From an uncultured Caulobacterales bacterium (GTDB lineage Bacteria > Pseudomonadota > Alphaproteobacteria > Caulobacterales > Caulobacteraceae): a stretch of DNA of 64,000 nucleotides. Positions 44,758 through 46,628 of this stretch are shown here, piece by piece. The stretch's first letter is position 1, and each line of letters opens with the position of its first letter. The stretch lies in assembly GCA_903862425.1 (NCBI GenBank), contig CAIOYC010000037.1, positions 62,001 to 126,000 on the forward strand, written 5' to 3'. A model generated the notes under the pieces. The model worked only from the letters and a program-made list of their open reading frames with translations, made no database searches and was not told where the DNA came from. Both the position numbers and the translations under genes were made by a program.

Positions 44758-45168
44758 ATGAGTATGGTCGAAGAATTCAAGGCGTTCATCGCCCGCGGCA
44801 ATGTGGTCGATCTGGCGGTCGGCGTGATCATCGGCGGCGCCTTCGGCAAGATCGTCACCGGGTTGGTGGATCAGATCGTCATGCCGCCGATCGGCCTCAT
44901 CCTGGGCGGGGTGGACTTCTCCGGCCTGAAGATCGTGCTGAAGGCCGCGGACGCCGCCACCAAGAAGCCTGAGGTGGCCATCGCCTATGGCGCCTTCATC
45001 AACACCCTGATCCAGTTCTTCATCATCGCCGTGGTGATCTTCCTGATCGTAAAGGCGCTGAACGTCCTGCAGCGCAAGCAGGACGAAAAGCCCGCCGATC
45101 CGCCCGCACCCACCACCAGTGAAGCCTTGCTCATGGAGATCCGCGACGCCCTAAAGGCTCGGCCTTAG
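44758..45168 (+). CDS. mscL: Large-conductance mechanosensitive channel
   Basis: This 136-residue pentameric channel opens under membrane tension to release solutes on osmotic downshock. TM1 follows the amphipathic N-terminus: [28 protein letters not shown] is the classic block. The loop has [18 protein letters not shown]2 is [21 protein letters not shown], and the tail is charged. GGAAG lies just before the ATG at 44758; another ATG two codons on and an upstream TTG are alternatives. TTGACG at 44696-44701 could be the -35 of its own promoter. Confidence 0.95.
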
Positions 45169-45659
45169 ACGGGCACGTTCGGTCCGCCAATGAGCAAGAT
45201 GCGACTGTTCAGAAAGCGATAGGGCGGGACAGCAAGACTCTTCTTGGCTGGGCCGATCAGTGGCCGACCAGCCAGAGAATAGCGCGTACCGCAGCACGGG
45301 CAGGTCCAGCGCGCGTCCGTTGGAGCGGACGCTTCGATACCGTGCGGGTCAACCACACAGCGATGTCCCGGCATGGTGCACGCGAGGTCGAGCACGACAT
45401 ACCGCGGCGCCATGGGTGAAGAGTCGAGCACCAAGGCCTCATCAGCCGCTAGCCCCCGAACGCCAATTGGTCGCCCAAGAACGGCTAAGGTCTTAAAGAA
45501 GCCGTCTGGCTTCGTAGGCAAGGCGACGCGTACACGGGGGTCGTCCACGACCGGCTGAGCGGAACTGAGTAGGGATTAACCTGCCGCACCTAGACCGCCG
45601 ATACCCATCGCCCAGCCCAGAAAGCCGATGAAGGTCCGACGAGCGGGCGCCTCAGCCAT
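45165..45659 (-). pseudogene. Tat-type Rieske-like protein gene with in-frame ochre stop and altered ligands
   Basis: From ATG 45659 the frame reads MAEAPARRTFIGFLGWAMG, a twin-arginine signal, then TAA at 45578-45576, then continues open to 45165 with a Rieske-like domain. The start overlaps the hemerythrin stop as TGATG, which supports a real coupled start. In the domain the two iron-sulfur motifs read CTMPGHRC and CPCCGTRY, with GPAKKSL after them; the normal motifs are C-T-H-x-G-C and C-P-C-H-G. So one His is Met and the other is Cys. A GTG at 45548 would give a 127-residue cytosolic version without the Tat signal. Either the gene is decaying or the domain holds a different centre. Confidence 0.75.
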
Positions 45660-46489
45660 CAGACCAGCTTCAGCGCCTCGCGGTGCATGGCGCGGGTGAT
45701 GCGGTGACCGTCGGCGGGGGCGAGACCAGCGTGGAAGCCGGGCAGGACCTGCTCCTCGCCCTCGATATGCTCCTCCACCAGCTTTTGCAGGGCCTTGGCC
45801 TTGCGCAGCCAGCGCGGGTCGTCCTTGGGCAGAGCTTCCAGTTCGTACAGATAGGTCTTGATCTCGAACAGCTCGGCCGCGAGGTGCATGGACGAAGCTC
45901 CCTGATCCGTGGCCCGCAGGGCCGGATAGAGCACGTTCTCCTTCTGCAGGGCGTGGCGGGTCAGAAGGGCGTTCAGCTGGTCGAGCAGCCGGGTGCGCTT
46001 GGCCACCTGTACGTCGCCAGTCTCGCCGATCTGCTTGAACAGTTTCTCGATCCGGCGGTGCTCGCCGGTAAGGCCCTCGTACCAGTCGCCGGTCATGGCG
46101 GTGGTGGCGGTGGCGGCGGCCTTGCGCGAATTGACCAGGGCGAAGGCGGTGACGAAGCCGACGCCCAGGGCGGCGGCGACCATGGTCCAGGAGACGCGCT
46201 CATTGCGCGCCCGGTCGAGCGCATAGTGGGCGCCCTCGTCGGCCCGCTTGGCGGCTACGCGGCTAAGTTCGGTGATCAGGCTGGCCCCGTCGCCGGTGCG
46301 GCGGGCCGCTTCCTTGCCGAAATCCGTCAGCAGGTTGGCACCGTCTCCCGTACGCCGAGCGGCCTCACGGCTGAGTTCGGACAGGAACTGTGCGCCGTCG
46401 CCGGTCCGGCGCGCGGCTTCGCGGCTCAGATCCTTCAGCACACCACGCGCGTCTTCCAGGCGGTCCTTGGCGTCGTCGAACACAGGCAT
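45659..46489 (-). CDS. Membrane-anchored hemerythrin-domain protein with four 18-residue repeats
   Basis: This 276-residue protein starts at ATG 46489, with GAGAGG nearby upstream. Residues 21-92 are four 18-residue units (LSREAARRTGDGAQFLSE, then close copies), all helical and basic. A membrane segment follows at 99-119 (VSWTMVAAALGVGFVTAFAL). The hemerythrin domain is from ~134 to the end: GEHRRIEKLF, TRHALQKENVLYPAL and EEHIEGEEQVLPGFH supply His and Glu ligands for a di-iron site that binds O2 or NO. The repeats face the cytoplasm or periplasm depending on topology. The stop overlaps the Rieske-like start, implying an oxygen- or redox-linked pair. Confidence 0.85.
   Translation of the reverse strand: MPVFDDAKDRLEDARGVLKDLSREAARRTGDGAQFLSELSREAARRTGDGANLLTDFGKEAARRTGDGASLITELSRVAAKRADEGAHYALDRARNERVSWTMVAAALGVGFVTAFALVNSRKAAATATTAMTGDWYEGLTGEHRRIEKLFKQIGETGDVQVAKRTRLLDQLNALLTRHALQKENVLYPALRATDQGASSMHLAAELFEIKTYLYELEALPKDDPRWLRKAKALQKLVEEHIEGEEQVLPGFHAGLAPADGHRITRAMHREALKLV
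46214..46429 (-). repeat. Four tandem 54-base coding repeats in the hemerythrin gene
   Basis: The DNA encodes four copies of an 18-residue unit (residues 21-38, 39-56, 57-74, 75-92). EAARRTGDGA is identical in the first three; the fourth has diverged to VAAKRADEGA. The copies differ at synonymous positions, so the array is old or selected at protein level and not a recent slippage product. Confidence 0.85.
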
Positions 46490-46628
46490 AGGTATATCCT
46501 CTCCCCCGCACCGTTTTGGGCATCTGGGGCCTTGCCTTCCACAACGCAACGGTTGGCGTGGCTGTTCCCCGATCCCGACTCGTCTCGTCGCCCTTGCCAG
46601 GGCGCGCTTTCGGGGCCATGGCCCCCTC

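Follow-up and report, generated by a model that had tools for sequence, protein, structure and literature searches.

Is a Rieske-like gene that carries a stop codon in its export signal and has lost both cluster histidines simply decaying, or does it encode a metal centre with an altered ligand set? This question is raised by a frame on the minus strand of the window, i.e. the whole analyzed stretch of 64,000 nucleotides from an uncultured Caulobacterales bacterium. The matter is of interest as the histidine ligands of Rieske proteins set a high, pH-dependent potential that enables quinol oxidation. An earlier note on this DNA had left both answers open. Our results favour decay of the window copy, but they do not attribute all of its peculiarities to it: the cysteine in the second ligand motif (box 2) did not arise through this decay, because an unbroken homologue from another genus also reads CPCCGTRY.

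Organization of the locus

The Rieske-like frame starts at ATG 45659 and overlaps the TGA of the upstream hemerythrin gene by one base (TGATG). Its first 27 codons (45579 to 45659, minus strand) form a twin-arginine (Tat) leader and are followed by an in-frame ochre stop at codon 28 (TAA, 45578-45576); the translation up to this stop is MAEAPARRTFIGFLGWAMGIGGLGAAG. Another 136 codons are then open until a second TAA at 45167-45165, and from GTG 45548 a Rieske-like domain of 127 amino acids can be read (45165 to 45548, minus strand). The earlier note had placed the overlapping ATG, the Tat signal, the stop and the Rieske-like continuation in one frame, and this is indeed how they are read. The translation also confirms the ligand motifs given there: box 1 is CTMPGHRC (45380-45357) where CTHxGC is canonical, and box 2 is CPCCGTRY (45302-45279) where CPCHGSxY is canonical. 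The claim that both cluster histidines are replaced holds for the substitutions themselves, Met in box 1 and Cys in box 2. However, box 1 has changed by more than His to Met: two extra residues give C-x6-C instead of the usual C-x4-C, with a displaced His.

The frame is wedged between two neighbours and overlaps the stops of both. Upstream lies the hemerythrin gene (HHE domain at 45743 to 46078, minus strand; PF01814, E = 1.2e-14), and on the other side the stop of the convergent mscL gene (44758 to 45168, plus strand; PF01741, E = 2e-46) overlaps the final stop of the Rieske frame. The hemerythrin protein itself (45662-46528, minus strand) carries N-terminal repeats of about 22 residues (SREAARRTGDGA...) and a hydrophobic stretch ahead of the HHE domain; a comparable architecture is seen in a genome of the same genus (G002, L139:1099-2307).

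An unbroken homologue in another genus

Searching 100 relatives, the best non-self match to the 127-residue ORF was obtained in G019 (58% identity over residues 80-122), a Caulobacterales MAG of a genus different from that of the window (isolate RH-23may17-1067; locus L050, CANJID010000015.1). The lack of a homologue in any relative, named by the earlier note as an outcome that would speak against its reading, is therefore not what is observed. The G019 homologue is an unbroken Tat-Rieske ORF of 223 codons, with its Rieske domain at roughly residues 47-175 and the motifs CTHEPC and CPCCGTRY. Of the 39 residues from CPCC onwards, 25 are identical in the two copies. These include the segment SLAVPPY and three residues of CPCCGTRYxL (T, R, L), and the box 2 Cys is retained in both despite divergence elsewhere. 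The Tat regions align without gaps (11 of 24 residues identical, the stop position excluded), placing the window TAA (45576 to 45578) opposite TGG, which encodes the Trp in the Tat helix of G019.

The features for which the earlier note proposed a check of conservation do not behave alike: the box 2 Cys is common to both copies, whereas the TAA and the box 1 Met, together with the longer box 1 loop, are seen in the window copy only. Relatives with intact motifs and no stop, which that note had linked to simple decay, are matched in part, as the G019 copy is free of stops and keeps its CTH, but has the Cys in box 2 as well. Both histidines are present in 74 of 75 motif pairs, the single exception being G019; these pairs stem from the best-scoring loci of the 100-relative, class and order searches rather than from a random sample, and the pattern used to read them presupposes a C-x-C-x-G box. 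Outside this set, one genome of the window's class carries a QPxY-type Rieske as its second copy (L093:7409-8071), and this one reads CHCHG instead of CPCHG.

Family assignment

Both copies resemble the PetA/QcrA Rieske subunit (TIGR01416, PF00355) in their Tat leader, two-box layout and GPAxxxLxVPPY-like tail, and both differ from it by the box 2 Cys. For the G019 copy the further characteristics of a bc1-type Rieske are in place: a TIGR01416 score of 106.5 (cut-off 97.4), a PF00355 match above cut-off (E = 1.3e-8), a box 1 that keeps its Cys and His (CTHEPC), and an uninterrupted N-terminus, next to CPCCG in box 2. In the window copy the ligand His of box 1, that of box 2 and an uninterrupted Tat-anchored N-terminus are all absent, and the box 1 loop is longer. 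The proteobacterial bc1 Rieske model TIGR01416 does recognize the 127-residue ORF (E = 1.7e-9), but below the cut-off (37.9 bits against 97.4), and reading through the stop as X brings no gain (37.8 bits). With Pfam, zero families were found for the window domain at E <= 10, hence no PF00355 match. AlphaFold2 models built from two-row alignments had a mean pLDDT of 36.6 (G019) and 44.3, too low to interpret fold or geometry.

Two trivial explanations were considered. Chance similarity to Rieske proteins is ruled out by the TIGR01416 E-value together with the 25/39 identity to G019. A canonical gene distorted by sequencing errors is unlikely: converting the Trp codon TGG into TAA requires two base changes, the box 2 Cys is also found in another genome, and a separate canonical Rieske is present in the same genome.

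Orphan genes at two separate sites

That canonical Rieske (CTHLGC, CPCHGS) lies on contig C25 of the window genome (G000), and adjoining it are the only matches in the genome to cytochrome b (PF00033) and c1 (PF02167), one each. The pattern in G019 is similar: one match to each profile, both on C14 next to a canonical Rieske. No cytochrome b or c1 match is located near either CPCC gene in these two genomes. Since the sole cytochrome b and c1 genes adjoin another, canonical Rieske in both cases, neither CPCC gene has its own bc1 complex, a further difference from PetA/QcrA. A second bc1 complex served by the CPCC Rieske was considered and not found, each genome having a single cytochrome b and a single c1.

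The surroundings of the two genes were compared with those in relatives. Two genomes of the same genus were available for the window site. In G001 mscL and hemerythrin are convergent with approximately 42 bp between them and no Rieske; in G002 the gap holds an unrelated pair of overlapping ORFs (L139:2324-2973, minus strand), which we take to resemble a PIN-type toxin and its antitoxin. This unrelated pair marks the gap as a variable site. When Rieske pieces of the window and G019 were compared by tblastn with 12 hemerythrin loci, nothing better than E = 0.25 was obtained. The G019 gene occupies a different site, between ETF-QO and uracil-DNA glycosylase (UDG). In a survey of 20 loci from 30 genomes searched (19 besides that of G019), the distance between ETF-QO and UDG is at most about 220 bp in 14 of the 19 others and about 750 bp in L197, while four showed no ETF-QO; the G019 locus is the only one with a CPCC gene between the two. 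Because the G001 gap is without a Rieske and ETF-QO and UDG are adjacent without one in other loci, both copies are best seen as single-gene inserts at separate sites, and remnants of repeated loss are less likely.

Divergence and ancestry

The window and G019 copies have diverged strongly (dN 0.85, dS 1.33, dN/dS 0.64). For the same pair of genomes, dN/dS is 0.34 for the canonical Rieske and 0.36 for mscL. Their dS values (0.65 and 0.60, respectively) are likewise below that of the CPCC copies. Core genes may, however, have a dS depressed by codon selection, and the upstream part of the CPCC copies aligns poorly. The higher dS of the CPCC pair would fit a separate acquisition of copies that had already diverged.

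A tree of 73 rows joins the two CPCC sequences at 99/92, outside the rest. Their branches, at 8.0 and 3.1, are very long, the bootstrap of this tree had not settled, such long rows are placed unsurely, and the pairing derives mostly from the 39-residue block. We disagree with the box 1 alignment of the two copies produced by MAFFT and take the CVV shared after the second Cys as anchor instead. With the window row left out, a branch of 96/93 separates G019 and six QPxY-type rows from the remaining 26, of which 23 belong to the window's class; the six by themselves are grouped at no more than 90/36. Among the matches listed for 398 phylum genomes, the best non-window profile match (1.3e-24) is in G1384. 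This Rieske, one of the six QPxY-type rows, has both histidines present, and the genes after it encode cytochrome b and a cytochrome c1. Relatives of this kind suggest that the ancestor of the CPCC genes was probably an ordinary bc1 Rieske, a direction of change that we infer from sequence comparison.

Search for further CPCC genes

An exact pattern (CPCCGT, then Arg or Ser, then Tyr), which other CPCC variants would escape, occurs in 2 of 390 genomes of the family, those of the window and G019. In genome_contigs, which perhaps does not cover the window's own genome, the pattern was found at 22 loci and only L050 is a Rieske; in viral_contigs it was found at three loci, none of them a Rieske. 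Protein or profile searches were also run on overlapping sets of genomes from the class (385), order (398) and phylum (398). Among the matches listed, the motifs read in 30 class loci, 16 new order loci and 11 phylum loci (including G1384) are all canonical. The plasmid search matched 112 records, all with less than 60% identity. In the literature we found no Rieske with CPCCG and, under those phrases, none with a histidine ligand replaced by cysteine; among the papers listed, titles and abstract openings named no natural His-to-Cys Rieske.

Probable decay of the window copy

The coding signal of the window frame is the highest among the six frames, but poor in absolute terms: it scores -0.015 per codon against a gene mean of 0.522, only 4.7% of 149 real segments are as low, and 22% of 745 wrong-frame segments score at least as high. 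Its GC content by codon position is 0.68/0.54/0.68, against 0.73/0.47/0.84 for hemerythrin. The test is biased against foreign genes, as the training genes had a GC3 of at least 0.72. The G019 copy is also weak in this respect (0.079 versus 0.672; 8.8% of 34 real segments are as low).

Across its 164 codons the window copy is interrupted by a single stop and is free of frameshifts. Given that 2.2% of single base changes produce a stop and that only one is present, the decay phase was probably short, at less than about 0.5 substitutions per site (beyond 0.5: P 0.026). In the 39-residue block that starts at CPCC, 12 of the 25 identical residues use different codons and pN/pS is 0.57 (95% 0.32-0.96), indicating that selection acted for part of the time. 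Overall, the window copy appears to be decaying and is probably a pseudogene.

On balance we favour, with reasonable but by no means full confidence, the following history. A bc1-type, Tat-exported Rieske gene would have parted from its partner genes for cytochromes b and c1 and travelled horizontally between genomes as a single gene, the second cluster His having presumably changed to Cys in the ancestor common to the window and G019 copies. In the window lineage the gene would have landed between hemerythrin and mscL and then decayed: the Trp codon of the helix would have become TAA, the first cluster His would have been lost and the box 1 loop would have lengthened. Most likely this copy has lost its function and yields no working Rieske protein, but at most a peptide of 27 amino acids through coupling to hemerythrin.

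Alternative explanations

It is possible, though we lean against it, that the G019 copy encodes a functional Rieske variant in the periplasm with a predicted natural low-potential 3Cys-1His [2Fe-2S] cluster, the window copy being its dead relative. The unbroken ORF, the Tat signal and the TIGR01416 score above cut-off agree with this, as do the retained CTH, with only the box 2 His changed to Cys, and the preservation of that Cys in both copies amid divergence elsewhere. Moreover, in the Sulfolobus solfataricus ferredoxin ARF the replacement H64C is reported to allow a low-potential 3Cys-1His [2Fe-2S] cluster, whereas replacement of His44 failed (review, PMC2946596), and by our reading of the numbering His64 is the box 2 His, so that the change would be equivalent. 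Against a working gene, however, it is known from a single genome (a MAG), is without its own cytochrome b or c1, has weak codon usage and a start without Shine-Dalgarno (-2.7 kcal/mol), and its structure prediction is unusable. Its frame also overruns the domain by 48 codons with a coding score of -0.285, for which reason the G019 copy may be decaying too. To us this stretch (L031:8413-8557) has the appearance of an intergenic repeat that the frame runs into; if so, the normal stop of the gene may be lost.

We regard it as improbable that the window copy is alive, with the TAA ending a short Tat leader peptide and translation restarting at GTG 45548 or at TTG 45434/GTG 45431 to yield a cytosolic all-Cys domain (C-x6-C plus CPCC) with zinc, mononuclear iron or [2Fe-2S]. 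The 136 codons still open past the TAA are in line with such a product, and CPCCG conforms to the CPxCG knuckle that rubredoxins and zinc ribbons contain, but the first Cys pair is C-x6-C rather than CxxC and the coding signal falls in the range of wrong frames. At GTG 45548 no Shine-Dalgarno was found (-2.4 kcal/mol; random median -3.3); this is weak evidence, as the G019 start has none and trpB little (-3.8 kcal/mol). A Shine-Dalgarno-like stretch (-8.6 kcal/mol) does precede TTG 45434, but starts at this position or at GTG 45431 would truncate the domain. The engineered ferredoxin likewise points both ways: the triple mutant H44I/K45C/H64C is reported to have produced an Fe(Cys)4 site of the rubredoxin type, but the double His-to-Cys replacement largely impaired cluster assembly (PMC2946596).

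Finally, that two decaying Rieske paralogues each changed His to Cys independently is very improbable: both genes are fast-diverging orphans that differ greatly upstream of CPCC, but they share the residues of the 25/39 block and group at 99/92, none of the 74 other motif pairs has Cys at the box 2 His, and this replacement takes two base changes.

Relation to known clusters and implications

Under the favoured history, in which the window copy is the decaying member of a pair of orphans, this gene alone is a probable pseudogene and the interest rests with its G019 homologue. Proteins of the mitoNEET/CDGSH type have a fold and motif other than those of Rieske proteins. They share with the G019 copy the ligand count of 3Cys-1His, predicted in the latter. 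The mitoNEET ligands are given as Cys72, Cys74, Cys83 and His87, and the average g of its 3Cys-1His cluster as near 1.945, compared with 1.91 for Rieske centres (PMC9737848). The closer parallel is H64C ARF, in which one His is likewise replaced by Cys and the other kept (PMC2946596); it differs in being a laboratory-made archaeal ferredoxin, whereas G019 carries a natural bc1-type gene with a predicted cluster. The two natural copies follow the ARF pattern, the one with a single His replaced being unbroken and the one that lost both being broken, which with two cases is suggestive only. The novelty lies in the G019 copy as a predicted natural 3Cys-1His Rieske, the counterpart of the engineered protein. 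Annotation by TIGR01416 would label it an ordinary bc1 subunit.

A bolder proposal, which we put forward tentatively and consider rather unlikely, is that a whole natural Rieske lineage with a predicted 3Cys-1His low-potential [2Fe-2S] cluster and no bc1 complex of its own is spreading as a mobile gene. The window copy would then be a further step, with both histidines lost, and would either be silent by now or have been converted to an all-Cys metal site in the cytosol. If true, such a lineage would be the wild counterpart to H64C ARF, where the box 2 His, unlike the other, is reported to be replaceable by Cys without loss of the cluster (PMC2946596). By trading one His for Cys, it would show what the Rieske fold does once it is freed from quinol chemistry.
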